Shown: positions 13,723-34,275 of the stretch, one piece after another | How positions within the stretch are numbered: position 1 is the first letter of the stretch | How the letters are laid out: the number at the start of each line of letters is the position of its first letter | Source of the DNA: Pseudomonadota bacterium | GTDB lineage: Bacteria; Pseudomonadota; Gammaproteobacteria; Burkholderiales; Rhodocyclaceae | DNA length: 34,275 bases | Reading direction: 5' to 3' | Assembly: GCA_009778425.1 (NCBI GenBank) | Contig: WRJU01000251.1 | Span: forward strand, 1-34,275 | Program-made: the position numbers and the translations under genes | The notes under the pieces: generated by a model | Seen by the model: the letters and a program-made list of their open reading frames with translations, nothing else | The model's database searches: none | Told to the model about the DNA's origin: nothing

Positions 13723-14715
13723 TTATTGGGCGGCGGCAATGGCTTGCCGGATGGCCTCCCCGTAGGGGATGTGTTTCTCCGACGCCAAGGCGCGAGCGCG
13801 GGCATGCAGGGCAAGCCGGTCGGGGTCGACGTTCTTTTCCGCAAACTCCCGGATCGAGGCATCCGAGACGCCGCCCGTGGCTTTGTTCTTGGTGGCGTGT
13901 TCGCCAAAACTGACGATCGGGTCGCGGCTGCTCAAGAAGGCTTTGAAGGCCGCGCCTATGTCCTGCTTCTGCTCTCCTTCGCCGAATTCGACGGGAGTGC
14001 TGCCCAAGGCATCCAGCAGGCTTTCCACCAGCGGCCTGTCCTTGGGCGCAAGCCGCCCCTGGGCGATCAAGCCTTCGGCAAAGCTGGCGTTCCCGGCATG
14101 CCGCCGCTCGGCGGCTTCGCGCTGGCGCTCCTCTTGCAGCACTTGATTCTGCTGTTTCAGTTGGGCGTTTTCGGCTTGTAGTGCAGCAAGTTCTTCAGGG
14201 GTCACGGTGGTCTCCGGTTCGGTCAAATGTGCCGACGTCGGCACATTCGGTTCAGGGGCAATTTCAGGCTCGTTAAATTCGATTTCGACGACTCCCTCTT
14301 CGCCGTCGGCAAACTGCGGCTCGCGCAGCCCCTTGACGGCGGGCGGCTGTGCGCCAAGGAAGCCGACGTGGCGCAGGTAGTAGCTGCCGGGTTTTGGATT
14401 TGCCGGGGAGTCGGGCGCGTAGAAAGACGCGGAGATTTTTTTATAGCGCCCTGCCGCCACCAGTTCGGCGAAGGCGGGGTCGACCTGATGCGGCTCGGCG
14501 ATGAGGTCGCCCCCCGCAGCGGTGAGCGACTTCACCCAGCCGTAGGCCGGTGCATTGATTTTCGGGTGGCCGACCACAATGGGGGCTTCGTGCGCAGCAG
14601 GGTCGTAAGCCTCGACGCAGCCGATGATGTCGGCTTCGGAGAACAGGATTGGCTCGCCAGCGAGGGGCGTCTGTAGGCCAGCACGGAAGATATGGAGCGG
14701 CTTCATCATGGTCAC
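13723..14715 (-). CDS. Mu I-like capsid protease/scaffold protein
   Basis: 330 aa; LFSEADIIGCVEAYDPAAHEAPIVVGHPKINAPAYGWVKSL typical of the Mu I family. Start may be GTG 14715 or a nearby ATG. Confidence 0.9.
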   Translation of the reverse strand: MTMMKPLHIFRAGLQTPLAGEPILFSEADIIGCVEAYDPAAHEAPIVVGHPKINAPAYGWVKSLTAAGGDLIAEPHQVDPAFAELVAAGRYKKISASFYAPDSPANPKPGSYYLRHVGFLGAQPPAVKGLREPQFADGEEGVVEIEFNEPEIAPEPNVPTSAHLTEPETTVTPEELAALQAENAQLKQQNQVLQEERQREAAERRHAGNASFAEGLIAQGRLAPKDRPLVESLLDALGSTPVEFGEGEQKQDIGAAFKAFLSSRDPIVSFGEHATKNKATGGVSDASIREFAEKNVDPDRLALHARARALASEKHIPYGEAIRQAIAAAQ

Positions 14716-14894: not shown

Positions 14895-14916
14895 AAAACG
14901 GCGCTACGGCCGTTTT
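14895..14916 (-). terminator. Terminator-like hairpin at the Rha stop codon
   Basis: AAAACGGC-GCTACG-GCCGTTTT, 8-bp stem with flanking A4/T4, overlapping the rha-like stop codon; could act on either strand. Confidence 0.55.
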
Positions 14917-15274
14917 ATGGCGCGGCGGTCTGCGATGCGATGTAATTCAAGAACAGCGCCCGTTCCGCCCGGCTGTACGCTTCGATGTAACGCTCTCTCC
15001 ACCGCGCTGCCGCAGCGCCCGTGAAGCACATGCACAGGATGGCGAAGCCGTCGCGGGTAATCTCGTACATGGGCATGGCAACCTGCCCGTCGGTCGGGCT
15101 GTATTTATGGTACTGGGTGAGCGCGAAGTTTCGCCGCCGGAACCTCTCCGAGCAATCAAGGCTCTCGATGTCCCGCAGCACATCCTTGTGCGGCTGCTCA
15201 AACCGATTGGAGAGGTCGAGCGAGGTGACGTACAGCCGGTTGCCGTTTTGGCGGATGAGTTGGGTGTCGGCCAC
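14915..15274 (-). CDS. Rha-family phage regulatory protein (pfam09669-like)
   Basis: GTG start at 15274 preceded by AGGAGG; VADTQLIRQNGNRLYVTSLDLSNRFEQPHKDVLRDIESL...FRRRNFALTQYHKY...MYEITRDGFAILCMCFTGAAAARWRERYIEAY. Confidence 0.88.
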   Translation of the reverse strand: MADTQLIRQNGNRLYVTSLDLSNRFEQPHKDVLRDIESLDCSERFRRRNFALTQYHKYSPTDGQVAMPMYEITRDGFAILCMCFTGAAAARWRERYIEAYSRAERALFLNYIASQTAAP

Positions 15275-15331
15275 GATTGGCCTCCTGTAGTAGTGGTTGT
15301 TTTTTTCCGCGCTCCCGCTGCGAAACGGGGT

Positions 15332-15419
15332 GGGCGAAGCCGTGCGGGTTCGCAGACCGGCTACAGGTTCCGGCAGGGCTTGCGCCCTCCCGCACGGCTC
15401 GCCCGTAGGAAGCCGTGCG
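15332..15419 (-). ncRNA. Candidate C4-like structured/antisense RNA leader
   Basis: 16-17 bp outer stem (15332-15348 with 15389-15404, one bulge) enclosing AGGGC-GCAA-GCCCT and CCGG-N9-CCGG hairpins; a competing 9-bp pairing with 15411-15419. Confidence 0.5.
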
Positions 15420-15424
15420 TTGCA

Positions 15425-15458
15425 CAAAAAAGCCGCGTTTCGTAAAACTGGCGCGGCT
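15425..15458 (-). terminator. Rho-independent terminator-like hairpin downstream of gene G / upstream of the structured leader
   Basis: Minus strand AGCCGCG-N14-CGCGGCT followed by TTTTTG. Confidence 0.6.
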
Positions 15459-15575
15459 GATTGCGCCTGTAGTGGTGGGCTGCGACGCCCGCGTTGTCGT
15501 TGTTTGCGACAGCGGTAGTGAGATTACGACCTGTGAAAATGTTTTGCAATTAGTGAAACGACGGGGTTTTTCATG

Positions 15576-16025
15576 TCATCCGATGGCTCCTTGCAGGTGT
15601 TTGCTGATCTTCTCGATCACGAGCTGCTCGTCTTCCGGCGCGAGTTGCCGCGCTTCCGGGTCGGCGAAGAGCAAGCCGCGACGTGGCATCTTGTTGGTTC
15701 CGTATTCATGGTAGGCGGCGTAAGGCTGCCCGAAGCCGACCATCGCGCTGGTGGCATCCGCGCGCCGGTCGAGCGAGTCGAGCATCGTGCCGTGGCGGTC
15801 GAGGATGCGGCGGTTGCCGTCTTTCGGGTAGCTCTTCAGCGTTGCGGGCGCGTGCGGCTCCCAGGCTTTGCCGAGCGGATCGCTCTGGGCCTCGAAGCGT
15901 TCGCCGACGCGCTCCCAGAGGGTTGCGGCGATGTCGGCCATCGCCGGGGCAAGGTCGGCAGCGGCAGCCTGGAGTTGCTTGAGCGCCAGGGCGATGTGGC
16001 TGGAGTCGGCTTCGATGTGGATCAT
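15576..16025 (-). CDS. Phage virion morphogenesis protein (Mu gpG-like)
   Basis: 149 aa; LGKAWEPHAPATLKSYPKDGNRRILDRHGTMLDSL...YAAYHEYGTNKMPRRGLL. Confidence 0.93.
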   Translation of the reverse strand: MIHIEADSSHIALALKQLQAAAADLAPAMADIAATLWERVGERFEAQSDPLGKAWEPHAPATLKSYPKDGNRRILDRHGTMLDSLDRRADATSAMVGFGQPYAAYHEYGTNKMPRRGLLFADPEARQLAPEDEQLVIEKISKHLQGAIG

Positions 16026-24273: not shown

Positions 24274-24495
24274 ATGCAACTCAAAAGAACCACTACCCCA
24301 GAAGCTATCCGTCGGCAGTGGGAACGCGAAGGGAAGACCATGTCTTCGTGGGCAAGAGATCACGGCTTCGAGCCGAGTGACGTCTCGCGTGTGCTGTGCG
24401 GACTGGCGCGCGGTCGATATGGGCGAATGCACAGAATCGCCATCGCCCTCGGCCTCAAAGAAAACCCGAACGAGCAGGTGGGAGTGGGAGCATGA
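24274..24495 (+). CDS. Ner-like / BcepMu gp16-like DNA-binding protein
   Basis: 73 aa; TPEAIRRQWEREGKTMSSWARDHGFEPSDVSRVLCGLARGRYGRMHRIAIALGLK; first gene of the early operon. Confidence 0.88.
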   Translation: MQLKRTTTPEAIRRQWEREGKTMSSWARDHGFEPSDVSRVLCGLARGRYGRMHRIAIALGLKENPNEQVGVGA

Positions 24496-25148
24496 GCCAA
24501 TCCCTCTTGCCGAAATTGCCCGCCTATCTACACAAGGAGCCAACTGTGTCCACTGATCTTTTCCCTGAAATGCTGCCTGAAAACTTCGCCAGCCGCATCG
24601 TCACGCCGCATGTTGCCTTTGGCGATATTGATATCCGTCAGGATGAAGAAGGGCGGTATTGCCTGAACGATCTGCACAAGGCGGCGGGGTATTCGCCTAA
24701 CCATCGTCCGTCCAAGTGGCTTCGACACAAACGGACACAGAATTTGATTGCCGAATTTTCCAAACCGAATAAGCCCGAAAATGGGCTTATTGTGCACGGC
24801 AGCAATAAGCGCGAATTTGCGCTTATTCCACCCGTCACGGAAGCGGCAAAAAACACCCCGACCTATGTCATCAAACCCCTTGTCTACGCCTACGCCGCGT
24901 GGGTCAGCCCTGCTTTCGAGCGGTTCGTGTACGAAGTCTTCGATGCCGTGATGTCCGCAGCCGTTGAGCAACAGCAACGCGAAGCCGCCGCGCTTTACAC
25001 CATCCGCCCGCGCTGGAAGCCGATTGCTGACCATCCAGGCATGCGCCGCACGGCGCTCATCGAACTGACCGGGCACAAGTCCCCCGGCTCCATCACCGCA
25101 TGCCGCCGCCGGATGCGGGAAGTCGGGCTGATCGGGGGGCGGGCATGA
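24492..25148 (+). CDS. KilA-N domain protein
   Basis: ATG at 24492 overlapping ner stop (ATGA); RQDEEGRYCLNDLHKAAGYSPNHRPSKWLRHKRTQNLI...YVIKPLVYAYAAWVSPAFERFVYEVFD. Confidence 0.92.
   Translation: MSQSLLPKLPAYLHKEPTVSTDLFPEMLPENFASRIVTPHVAFGDIDIRQDEEGRYCLNDLHKAAGYSPNHRPSKWLRHKRTQNLIAEFSKPNKPENGLIVHGSNKREFALIPPVTEAAKNTPTYVIKPLVYAYAAWVSPAFERFVYEVFDAVMSAAVEQQQREAAALYTIRPRWKPIADHPGMRRTALIELTGHKSPGSITACRRRMREVGLIGGRA
24768..24827. repeat. Two tandem hairpin-forming inverted repeats inside the KilA-N gene
   Basis: AATAAGCCC-GAAAAT-GGGCTTATT (24768-24791) and AATAAGCGC-GAATTT-GCGCTTATT (24804-24827). Confidence 0.95.
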
Positions 25149-26539: not shown

Positions 26540-28354
26540 ATGCAAATGTCGCCCGCGCTGACCGAGGAGCTTTTTTCACTGCGCAACCGGCTCTCCGCCG
26601 CGCCGCATGGAGAAGGCTACGAGCTTGTCCGCCAGTTTGCTGACTTCATCGGGCGTAGCCCACAGACGATATACGTCTGGCTGCGCAAGCACACGGGATA
26701 TGACACTGGGCGCAAGCGCCGATCTGACACGGGGCGCAGCCGGATGCCTTCCGAATCGCTCGACTTTATTGCCAGCGCACAGCGCGAGGCAGTGCGCGGG
26801 AACGGAAAACGGACGATGCCCCTGGCCGTAGCGATGAACGTAGCAGAGGCAAATGGCATGGCAGTGAATGTAGGAAAGAGCCGCGTGGGCGCTATTTTAC
26901 GTAAGCGCCGGATGGATGCTAAGACGATGCAAGCAGCGCGAAATCACGGTGCTTTGCGCAGTCTGCACCCCAACCATGTGCACCAGATCGACCCATCCTT
27001 ATGTGTCCTGTACTACATGAATGGGCAGCAAAGGGTGATGCGTGATGAGGATTTTTATAAGAATAAACCAAGCAATTTCGGGCGCGTGAAGCTGAAGGTG
27101 TGGCGCTACGTGCGCTACGACCACGCGAGTGGGAATATCGATGTCCGCTACTACGAGGCCGAAGGCGAATCGCAAGCAAGTTTGTTTGACTTCCTGCTGT
27201 ACACATGGGGCGAGCAGCCGGAGCGCGTGTCCTACGGGATGTCAGACATCCTGCTGTGGGACAAGGGCAGCGCGAACACTTCTCTTGGGATATGCAACCT
27301 GCTGGATGCGCTGGGCGTGGATCACCGGACGCATGCACCTGGGCATGCCTGGGCGAAAGGCGGCGTGGAAGTCGCCAACAACATCGTCGAGACCCATTTC
27401 GAGAGCCGCCTTCGGTTCGAGCCGGTTGACTCGGTTGAAGCCCTGAATGCGGCGGCTGCTACATGGGTACGCGACTGGAACGCCAATGCAATCGTGCATG
27501 TGGATTCACGGCTGCGCCGCGCCTCCGGCGAGCCGATGGTGCGAGACGATCTTTGGCAGTTGATTATGCGCACACCGGAAGCGCTACGCCGGATTCCGGA
27601 GCGCAAGGTGTGCAAATACTTCCTGCATGGCGCGGCTCAGACGCGCCAAGTGCGAGACCTGAAGGTGAGTTTCGCGCACCCAGAGATCGGGCGTTCTGCG
27701 TCGTATGACCTCTCGCCATGGGCGGAATTCCTCGGCAACAAGATGCAGGTGACGGTGACGCCGCTGCTCTTACGCGAAGGGATGCTGCGCGTCGAGATCG
27801 ACCGCTTCGGCAGCGATCCGCTGGTGGTGGAGGTCGAACCCGAGCGCGACTTCGATGACTTCGGGCGCAGCCTGACTGCACAGGTGATCGGCGAAGGCTA
27901 CAGCCGCGCCTCGATGACTGGCGACGAGCGCACCGAAAAGCATCTACTTGAAGCGGCATACGGCGAAGGGGTGACAGCAGACAAGGCCGACAAGTTGCGC
28001 GCAAAACAGGTGCGGCCTTTTGCCCAACTGAACAACGGGCGCGGGGCAGTTGCGCACTCGCACCTTGGAAAAACAGAGCTTCCGCAGCGGCTGCTTCCGG
28101 CGGGCATGGAAGCGGATACACCCGCATTGGTGGCGGCGCGCGCGGCGCAGGTCGAACTGCGCCCACTCTCGCATGTCGAGGCTGCCAAGGAACTCAAGGC
28201 AATGCTCGGCGACGGCTGGAGACCTGCCGATCATTTCCGCTGGCTGCAACAACGCTACCCGGATGGCGTACAGCCCGACCAAGTGGATGCCATCTCCGCA
28301 GAACTGCGCGGCAAGCATGCGATGCCGTTGCAACTTTTATCTGGAGGGAAATGA
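26540..28354 (+). CDS. MuA-like DDE transposase (BcepMu type)
   Basis: 604 aa; catalytic-like positions in HQIDPSLCVLYY, ILLWDKGSANTS, GVEVANNIVETHFESRL. Confidence 0.95.
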   Translation: MQMSPALTEELFSLRNRLSAAPHGEGYELVRQFADFIGRSPQTIYVWLRKHTGYDTGRKRRSDTGRSRMPSESLDFIASAQREAVRGNGKRTMPLAVAMNVAEANGMAVNVGKSRVGAILRKRRMDAKTMQAARNHGALRSLHPNHVHQIDPSLCVLYYMNGQQRVMRDEDFYKNKPSNFGRVKLKVWRYVRYDHASGNIDVRYYEAEGESQASLFDFLLYTWGEQPERVSYGMSDILLWDKGSANTSLGICNLLDALGVDHRTHAPGHAWAKGGVEVANNIVETHFESRLRFEPVDSVEALNAAAATWVRDWNANAIVHVDSRLRRASGEPMVRDDLWQLIMRTPEALRRIPERKVCKYFLHGAAQTRQVRDLKVSFAHPEIGRSASYDLSPWAEFLGNKMQVTVTPLLLREGMLRVEIDRFGSDPLVVEVEPERDFDDFGRSLTAQVIGEGYSRASMTGDERTEKHLLEAAYGEGVTADKADKLRAKQVRPFAQLNNGRGAVAHSHLGKTELPQRLLPAGMEADTPALVAARAAQVELRPLSHVEAAKELKAMLGDGWRPADHFRWLQQRYPDGVQPDQVDAISAELRGKHAMPLQLLSGGK

Positions 28355-29637
28355 TGAGCTTAAAACTGAAGTCCGTACTGGCACGGGTTGGGCGAAAACA
28401 ATCCGACCTTGCCCGTGCGCTGGACGTCTCGGACGCCACCGTAGCGCAGATCGTGAATCACGGGAAATTTCCAAAATCGGTGGGCACCCGCAGACGGGAA
28501 TCCCCAAAGGCACAGGAGCCGGGGCAGTGGTCAGCCGAAGAGGACAAGACGGATTTGAAGACCCGCATCCTCGAATTATTGGTGGAAGCGGGCGCGACGC
28601 CTGATGACTTGTCAGGCGTGTTCGATGATGAGGCGGACGGGCTGCGCGCCAACGCAACCCGTCCTGTCTCCACTGATGTTTCAACAAATGCTCAAAGCGG
28701 GCATGTCAATGGTGAATCAACCGAGGAGAGTGTAATGTTACTGCGCAAGCAAGCGCTGAGTCAGCAAGCAAAGAAGCATTTCGGCCTATTCAGGACGCCG
28801 TTTTCGGACGAACTGGAGTCCGCCGAGGATTTATACCTCAGCCCGGACATCCGGTACGTGCGGGAAGCCATGCTGCAAACCGCCAAACACGGCGGGTTCC
28901 TGTGCGTGACGGGTGAGAGTGGCGCAGGCAAATCGGTGCTTGCCCGCGACCTTGAAGACCGGATTGCGCGGGAGTCGCAACCGATCATCCTCATCAAGCC
29001 GTATGTTCTGGCGATGGAGGATGATGACAGTCGCGGTAAAACGCTGAAGGCCACCCACATCGCGGAAGCGATGATGGCGGCTGTTGCTCCAAAGGAATCC
29101 GCGAAATCCAGCCCGGAAGCACGGTTCGCGCAACTGCACCGTGTGCTGAAGGCAAGCCATACGGCAGGTTACCGGCATTGCCTGTTGATCGACGAAGCGC
29201 ACTCGCTGCCAATCCCGACGATCAAACACCTGAAGCGGTTCTTTGAGTTGGAGATGGGGTTCAAAAAACTGACCTCAATTATTTTGATTGGGCAGCCGGA
29301 ATTGCGGGCAAAGCTGGACGAACGCAACCAACAGGTGCGCGAGGTGGTACAGCGGTGCGAGATGGTGGAACTCTCCCCGCTCGCTGGGCAGGCGCTCAAT
29401 GACTACCTGCGGCTCAAGTTCGACCGGGTCGGTAAACCACTGCCGGAAGTAATCAATGAAGGCGGCATTGATGCGTTACGGGCGCGGCTTACGTTCGCCA
29501 CGCGCCGTGGCGAACGCAGTGAGTCGGTATCGCTGCTTTATCCGCTTGCCGTGGGGAATGTACTGACAGCAGCGATGAATCTTGCTGCCGAGCTTGGCTC
29601 CCGGCTGGTGACTGCCGACGTGGTCAAGGGGGTATGA
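28351..29637 (+). CDS. MuB-like AAA ATPase, transposition target-DNA protein
   Basis: 428 aa; Walker A GESGAGKSVLARD, Walker B CLLIDEAHSLP; HTH-like N-terminus; follows MuA. Confidence 0.95.
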   Translation: MMSLKLKSVLARVGRKQSDLARALDVSDATVAQIVNHGKFPKSVGTRRRESPKAQEPGQWSAEEDKTDLKTRILELLVEAGATPDDLSGVFDDEADGLRANATRPVSTDVSTNAQSGHVNGESTEESVMLLRKQALSQQAKKHFGLFRTPFSDELESAEDLYLSPDIRYVREAMLQTAKHGGFLCVTGESGAGKSVLARDLEDRIARESQPIILIKPYVLAMEDDDSRGKTLKATHIAEAMMAAVAPKESAKSSPEARFAQLHRVLKASHTAGYRHCLLIDEAHSLPIPTIKHLKRFFELEMGFKKLTSIILIGQPELRAKLDERNQQVREVVQRCEMVELSPLAGQALNDYLRLKFDRVGKPLPEVINEGGIDALRARLTFATRRGERSESVSLLYPLAVGNVLTAAMNLAAELGSRLVTADVVKGV

Positions 29638-33300: not shown

Positions 33301-34275
33301 TCATTCCATCGTCTTGAGATTCTGGATTACGTCGGCGATGACTTTTTGCGCGCTGCCGTACAGCATGCGGCAATTATCCATATAGAACAGGGCGTTTTCG
33401 ATACCGGAGTAGCCCGCGCCCTGGCCGCGTTTGACGACGATGACCTGGGATGCGTAATCGGCATTCAAGATCGGCATGCCGTAGATCGGGCTGGTCTTGT
33501 CGGTTCGCGCCACGGGGTTGACTACGTCGTTGGCGCCGATGACCAGCGCGACATCGGCCTGGTTGAAATCGGAATTGATTTCTTCCAGATCGAAAATCTT
33601 GTCGTAAGACACGCCTGCCTCGGCCAGCAATACGTTCATATGTCCCGGCATCCGTCCGGCAACCGGGTGAATGGCAAATCTGACATCGACCCCGGCGTTT
33701 TCAAGCCACTCGGTCATCTCCCTGACTTTATGCTGCGCGCCTGCTACGGCCATGCCGTAACCGGGAATGATGATGACTTTGTTGGCGTAGTGCATCATCG
33801 CCGCCGCGTCGAGCGCGGATACTTCTTTCATTGTGCCATTGACCGTGCCGCTCGCCTGCGCTTCGCCGCTGATCGGCTGGAACAGGATATTGGTGATTGG
33901 GCGGTTCATCGCCTTGGCCATCAACTGCGTGAGCAGCGTACCGGCTGCGCCGACGACGATACCGGCAATGATCAGCGCCGGATTTCCCATGACGTAGCCT
34001 TCAAAGCCGACCGCCAGCCCGGTAAACGCGTTGAACAACGAGATGACCACCGGCATGTCGGCACCGCCAATCGGCAGCGTAACGACCACGCCCAAGGCCA
34101 GCGCGCAGATGAAAAAACCGACCAGGAGCCAGGGGGGAACCGCCAAGGGCCCCTTGCCAAACAACAGGTCATGGATGGGGTCGGGAGAGGCTGCCTGACC
34201 AAGCCAGACGATGGCGATTCCCAGCCCAAGCGTCACCAGGGCCAGGGCGATGTTGACGGTGTTCTGCGCGGGCAG
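33301..34275 (-). CDS. pntB: NAD(P) transhydrogenase subunit beta, 5' end beyond the window
   Basis: Open frame continues to 34275; KVIIIPGYGMAVAGAQHKVREMTEWLENAGVDVRFAIHPVAGRMPGHMNVLLAEAGVSYD...DVALVIGANDVVNPVAR. Confidence 0.96.
   Translation of the reverse strand: MPAQNTVNIALALVTLGLGIAIVWLGQAASPDPIHDLLFGKGPLAVPPWLLVGFFICALALGVVVTLPIGGADMPVVISLFNAFTGLAVGFEGYVMGNPALIIAGIVVGAAGTLLTQLMAKAMNRPITNILFQPISGEAQASGTVNGTMKEVSALDAAAMMHYANKVIIIPGYGMAVAGAQHKVREMTEWLENAGVDVRFAIHPVAGRMPGHMNVLLAEAGVSYDKIFDLEEINSDFNQADVALVIGANDVVNPVARTDKTSPIYGMPILNADYASQVIVVKRGQGAGYSGIENALFYMDNCRMLYGSAQKVIADVIQNLKTME

Follow-up and report, generated by a model that had tools for sequence, protein, structure and literature searches.

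We analysed a 34,275-nt stretch of DNA (the window) and found that it contains a Mu-like prophage which carries, between its G-like and I-like head genes, a compact minus-strand cassette that is very probably a P1-type C4 antisense-RNA switch, silencing a Rha-family antirepressor-like gene in the lysogen. The cassette lies in the 860-nt interval between the two head genes, and its parts and flanks, in the direction of transcription, are the following:

15576-16025, minus strand: Mu G-like virion morphogenesis protein (PF05069), flanking gene
15521-15549, minus strand: promoter-like TTGCAA-17 nt-TAATCT, directly 3' of the G stop codon (7 of 12 consensus bases)
15426-15513, minus strand: IsrK/c4-a1b1-like leader RNA with a terminator at its end (RF01394)
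15480-15485, minus strand: a1 site TCGCAG, pairing with a' over 6 nt
15466-15472, minus strand: b1 site CTACAGG, pairing with b'
15426-15457, minus strand: intrinsic-terminator-like hairpin GCCGCG..CGCGGC followed by T6, putative end of the leader RNA (from sequence and Rfam layout)
15326-15410, minus strand: C4 antisense RNA, three-way junction (RF01695 and fold)
15361-15367, minus strand: b' loop of C4, CCTGTAG, complementary to b1 and b2
15349-15355, minus strand: a' single strand of C4, CTGCGAA, complementary to a2 and, at 6 of 7 positions, to a1
15318-15324, minus strand: a2 site TTCGCAG, immediately 3' of C4
15284-15290, minus strand: b2 site CTACAGG, overlapping the rha Shine-Dalgarno AGGAGG
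14915-15274, minus strand: rha-family regulator, GTG start at 15274, 119 aa (PF09669; PHROG 995/518)
14895-14916, minus strand: terminator-like hairpin AAAACGGC-CGTAGC-GCCGTTTT, an inverted repeat overlapping the rha TAA stop
13723-14715, minus strand: Mu I-like head maturation protease (phrog_976, E 1.4e-105), flanking gene

The Mu-like nature of the prophage is given by PHROG matches to a transposase (26540-28354) and to transposition protein B (28351-29637), and by its portal and F proteins, which match Pfam Mu families. The host gene pntB (NAD(P) transhydrogenase beta) occupies 33301-34236 at the right end of the window, so that the end of the prophage and its host flank lie inside the window. 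The pntB product is 98% identical to a protein of the Betaproteobacteria MAG Nt197P3bin56 and is near those of Azoarcus and Zoogloeaceae MAGs; from their sample prefixes, we take the MAGs nearest by pntB to be of termite-gut origin. A search of IMG/VR for close relatives returned the window's own record only. The prophage also encodes a KilA-N protein (24396-25148), beside the early region, with no C4 in front of it.

The original prediction had placed a C4-type antisense-RNA module before a Rha gene, in the interval from G to I in a Mu-like phage, and this was borne out, since the Rfam C4 match is above threshold and the leader is kept in related Rha-bearing prophages. The predicted layout also stood in that all parts are on the minus strand, with coordinates slightly shifted. 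In the Rfam search that had been named as a test, RF01695 scored 59 bits, its cut-off being 45 (whole-window E 4.1e-9), and was the sole Rfam match above threshold there. The C4 strand has a minimum free energy of -50.8 kcal/mol (z = -4.65), equalled by none of 200 dinucleotide shuffles, and its minimum-energy structure is the canonical one, with the P2 hairpin, the P3 loop that bears b' and a single-stranded a'; this fold was also found in 51 of 53 relatives. RNAalifold run on a plain MAFFT alignment of 20 C4s, which is not structure-aware, gave a wrong consensus and was used for P2 only, where covariation was noted. From the Rfam and fold results, what had been described as a terminator followed by a structured stretch is thus an IsrK-like leader followed by C4. 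C4 RNAs of proteobacterial phages and the c4-a1b1 motif have been known since Weinberg 2010 (PMC2864571).

All four target sites of a P1-type system were found, in the order and with the spacing of P1, a1 being 6 nt long and the other three 7 nt. The sites were named after the annotated P1 record, in which a1 and b1 precede C4, a2 comes right after it and b2 lies at the ribosome site; as a control, the same script applied to P1 returned TTGACAG, GTTAGTG, TTGACAG and GTTAGTGA at the annotated a1, b1, a2 and b2. The pattern TTCGCAG-N15-45-CTACAGG has a single occurrence in the assembly (1.94 Mb), at the start of rha, and no other C4 target with both sites was found elsewhere in the genome. The assembly holds five C4 loci, at least four of them with distinct a/b sequences; multiple C4-like RNAs per genome are already known from Acinetobacter baumannii (PMC5320573).

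We then extracted loops and targets from 53 C4 matches in 29 related genomes, which gave 50 non-redundant loci. Mean perfect pairing was longer with the own target than with those of other loci for b'-b2 (7.6 vs 4.7), b'-b1 (6.7 vs 4.5), a'-a2 (6.8 vs 3.8) and a'-a1 (6.7 vs 4.5), and in 20,000 permutations per pairing the observed sum was never reached, so that loops and targets covary. By duplex energy the C4 of the window ranks its own target second of 50, and only 17 of the 50 loci have their own target in first place, which indicates that short pairings alone give incomplete specificity. Selection for orthogonality among the C4s of one genome was also considered and left no sign (difference 8.47 within genomes vs 8.55 between genomes).

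The gene downstream is a Rha-family gene with a GTG start and a perfect AGGAGG (15286-15281, minus strand), as had been proposed. Its Rha domain (PF09669, E 6.9e-19) scores 68.7 bits against a gathering threshold of 29.9 and covers profile positions 1-90 of 91; it also matches the anti-repressor PHROGs 373/63, and by family annotation the protein is a putative antirepressor. The proposal of an Icd-like ORF over the leader, in contrast, did not hold, because the peptide quoted for it is C4 read as codons and its translation is without support; as a candidate, the ORF was discarded, there being none between b2 and rha. An Icd-like peptide encoded in the leader and translationally coupled to Rha, in the strict P1 icd-ant layout, we consider extremely improbable. 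A TTG-started frame (14915-15427) does stay open through C4 into rha, and in one relative (L177) a small ORF after C4 overlaps a Bro-N gene by 4 nt, but open frames are common in such GC-rich DNA. Moreover, in the P1 record icd starts after both C4 and b2, whereas in the window, as also in ST64B and HB2107-3I, rha has the first start past b2. Since sal3 and CF23a share this direct layout with ST64B and HB2107-3I, icd is not general to C4 modules.

Upstream of C4, the promoter-like element has a candidate -10 that ends 7 nt ahead of 15513, the first base of the IsrK-like match, and the closest relative (G018:C59, locus L058) keeps it as TTGCAA-17-TAACGT. The IsrK match of the window (RF01394) reaches 31.9 bits, under the cut-off of 50 (E 7e-5 in 1 kb), and its homologues in sister phages are above it (58.8 bits in L058, 54.3 bits in L177); the Rfam search gave no match to c4-a1b1 (RF03163) in the window. 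The two terminator-like hairpins of the original prediction are both present in the sequence, but a strict promoter and terminator scan of the minus strand flagged nothing, so that the first is read as a terminator from its IsrK-like layout and T6 and the second is called terminator-like only. Seen as a possible moron, the cassette is an insertion, G and I being adjacent in relatives, and its promoter and terminators are sequence matches, some of them missed by the strict scan. Its GC content of 0.58-0.63 equals that of the flanks; a deviating base composition is usual, but not strictly required, for morons (PMC4378225).

A leader that carries a1 and b1 and ends in a terminator is also what would be found if the C4-like RNA acted mainly by causing premature transcription termination through leader pairing, following the seqA/seqC logic of phage P4. 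In P1, blocked translation can itself lead to Rho termination, so that a translation block could also bring termination here. Furthermore, the authors of the IsrK work describe SeqA of P4 as a structural homologue of IsrK (PMC4825925). We nevertheless regard this mode of action as unlikely, though worth keeping in view, because b2 lies on the rha Shine-Dalgarno in the window and at the ribosome-binding site in nearly all C4 loci compared, and termination alone needs neither. Like the window, P4 has an antisense RNA (CI) between two complementary sites on one transcript, but P4 CI is known to act by transcription termination in the leader and is not known to target an antirepressor ribosome-binding site (PMC4825925, discussion).

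In G018:C59, the closest relative, both C4 (65.2 bits) and IsrK (58.8 bits) score above threshold, and G, I and T homologues stand in the order of the window (G...C4-Rha...I). Its Rha is 59% identical to that of the window and has 261 aa vs 119 aa. Its a' reads CTGCTAA and both its a1 and a2 read TTAGCAG, a change that is compensatory at three places, and the b site is as in the window. About 3 kb of extra genes (L058 4512-7660) lie there between G and the C4-Rha cassette, among them a STAS-like DUF4325 protein beside a 341-aa protein with no Pfam match. The shorter Rha of the window, together with the weak promoter match, the leader below threshold, the a1 site shorter by one base and the existence of C4s without cargo in other Mu-like prophages (L056, L029), might suggest that the window holds an inherited C4-Rha cassette which no longer works. 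We think this improbable, since the Rha domain is complete, the AGGAGG is perfect, pairing has no mismatch at a2, b2 and b1, and, compared with the sister phage, a' and the a site have changed together.

Among the closest known counterparts of the proposed C4 switch is the c4-icd-ant1 module (immI) of P1, which shares with the window the RNA family, the fold, the order a1-b1-C4 (b' loop, a' strand)-a2-b2-ribosome-binding site and similar spacings. P1 differs in having icd, with Ant1/2 as the target instead of a Rha protein, and in the position of immI, beside a replication or immunity operon, whereas the cassette of the window sits in the late head region of a transposable phage. Furthermore, the P1 record places a C1 operator in the c4 promoter itself, and none is known for the window cassette; the independence from the CI/Ner switch that the original prediction proposed is, on sequence, a conjecture. 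Salmonella ST64B sb41 and 118970_sal3 resemble the window in having an above-threshold C4 and a b2 that lies right on the start of Rha, and HB2107-3I shares the direct C4-Rha layout; the ST64B locus, unlike the window, adjoins cI-like and DNA-binding regulator genes. C4 is unannotated in the ST64B and sal3 stretches, and in ST64B it lies inside the annotated sb41 CDS (L142 1868-3025, plus strand), the rha start of which is probably mis-annotated. In Aeromonas phage LPM4 (Peduoviridae), C4-Rha is likewise inserted in a late structural operon, here a P2-like tail operon between the tape-measure and tail protein U genes, although our script did not recover the a2 match.

We found that the Gifsy-1 isrK-orf45-anrP region (L286; NC_010392 34131-34214, minus strand) is a C4 locus, with C4 at 69 bits over orf45'/STnc1160, an isrK match that overlaps Rfam c4-a1b1, and b2 covering the ribosome-binding site of anrP. 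In Rfam, C4 and c4-a1b1 belong to one clan and isrK to none. IsrK of Gifsy-1 thus corresponds to the a1b1 leader, like the leader of the window, with the antirepressor AnrP as the target. The published mutant positions all fit a start at L286 position 1686, by which C159 and C162 belong to the a' strand of C4, and G28 and G31 to a1. AnrP translation goes up from 4 Miller units to 926 with C159U and to 484 with C162U (PMC4825925, Table 1D), and IsrK supplied in trans raises it more than 100-fold (PMC4825925). The authors of that study explain these results by an mRNA switch between alternative structures, not by C4 (PMC4825925). In our re-examination under a C4 model, which covered part of the published mutants, the effects of the mutants and of IsrK in trans are those expected of C4 loss or titration; read as changes in a C4 locus, the published mutants therefore support C4 repression of an antirepressor. 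By analogy, the RNA of the window at 15513-15426 may be an anti-C4 decoy.

Among Mu-like phages, G and I are neighbours with a gap of 78-285 nt in Mu, B3, YPCBV-1 and G105, and the records of Mu, B3, YPCBV-1, KP12 and Komp_PAO1_1, like the G105 stretch, gave no C4 match. Mu-like prophages yielded seven C4 loci, each of them near F-G-I or immediately ahead of I:

the window: G-C4-Rha-I
G018:C59: G-3 kb-C4-Rha-orf-I
G016:C138: F-G-C4-BroN-I
G172:C86: GemA-Mor-C4-94 aa ORF-BroN-I
G000:C161 and G013:C143: GemA-ORF in the Mor position-C4 without cargo-I
G132:C1: cassette in inverted orientation between F and G, its Bro-N match weak

The head proteins of these C4-bearing prophages are 25-85% identical to those of the window phage, which makes it likely, as judged from few loci (n=7), that C4 cassettes were repeatedly acquired in the F-G-I region. 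The two C4s without cargo (L056 4190-4274 and L029 1501-1585, both plus strand) lie in Mu-like prophages of two species, between the ORF in the Mor position and the I protease, and have intact a1/b1 with neither a2/b2 nor a cargo gene; they possibly act in trans only. A search for trans targets of the orphan C4 stayed at chance level, with 6 matches vs 7 for the reversed control pattern. Matches above threshold to sRNA-Xcc1 (RF02221) in Mu-like relatives (L126 6860-6949, minus strand; L167 3005-3090, plus strand) may point to one more phage RNA close to the head genes.

Across the 44 genes directly 3' of C4 loci, about one third belong to antirepressor families (Bro-N 7, Rha 2, ORF6N 2, AntA 1), and the others include His-Me/HNH endonucleases and many uncharacterised small proteins. 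C4 seems, from gene content, to control varied cargo; PADLOC matches occurred among the downstream cargo, and none of them could be traced to the ten members rescanned. A SymE-family toxin gene (L048 2677-2934, minus strand; PF08845, E 2.3e-16) lies directly behind a C4 RNA, which suggests that C4 could serve there as the RNA antitoxin.

In the switch that we propose for the window, a promoter just past G would give a single transcript, part of which would stop at 15426 as a short IsrK-like RNA with a1 and b1. Readthrough transcripts would be cut by RNase P, as in P1, into a C4 of ~80 nt, and this would shut the rha ribosome site by pairing a' with a2 and b' with b2, a step for which the sequence support is strong. 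Since b2 covers the rha Shine-Dalgarno, C4 would block Rha translation directly, with no Icd step. If an incoming phage had the same a/b code, the C4 of the prophage would silence its Rha too, and so provide superinfection immunity. The short a1b1 RNA, or a shortage of C4, would release Rha, and the released Rha could disturb repression in this or another prophage.

More broadly, we tentatively hypothesise that exchangeable C4 cassettes (with Rha, Bro-N or no cargo) recurrently use the F-G-I head region of Mu-like phages as a docking site, and would add an RNA-coded immunity specificity to that of the repressor, and that the short, IsrK-like a1b1 RNA is a C4 decoy that triggers the antirepressor, a three-RNA switch common to P1-, Gifsy- and Mu-like phages. 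Our literature search found no paper that treats C4 in Mu-like phages or together with Rha, which is weak evidence of novelty as subscription journals were mostly outside the search, and, within the same reach, none that equates IsrK with C4. The type of switch is known, and its recurrent use at the F-G-I spot of Mu-like phages appears to be undescribed. The cassette would place a classical antisense-RNA immunity switch in the structural operon of transposable phages, in which immunity is attributed to the repressor/Ner region. It further indicates that C4 may control a Rha protein directly and that one slot may accept different antirepressor cargo. The link to Gifsy-1 IsrK, moreover, joins two bodies of work in one model, in which the a1b1 RNA would be an anti-C4.
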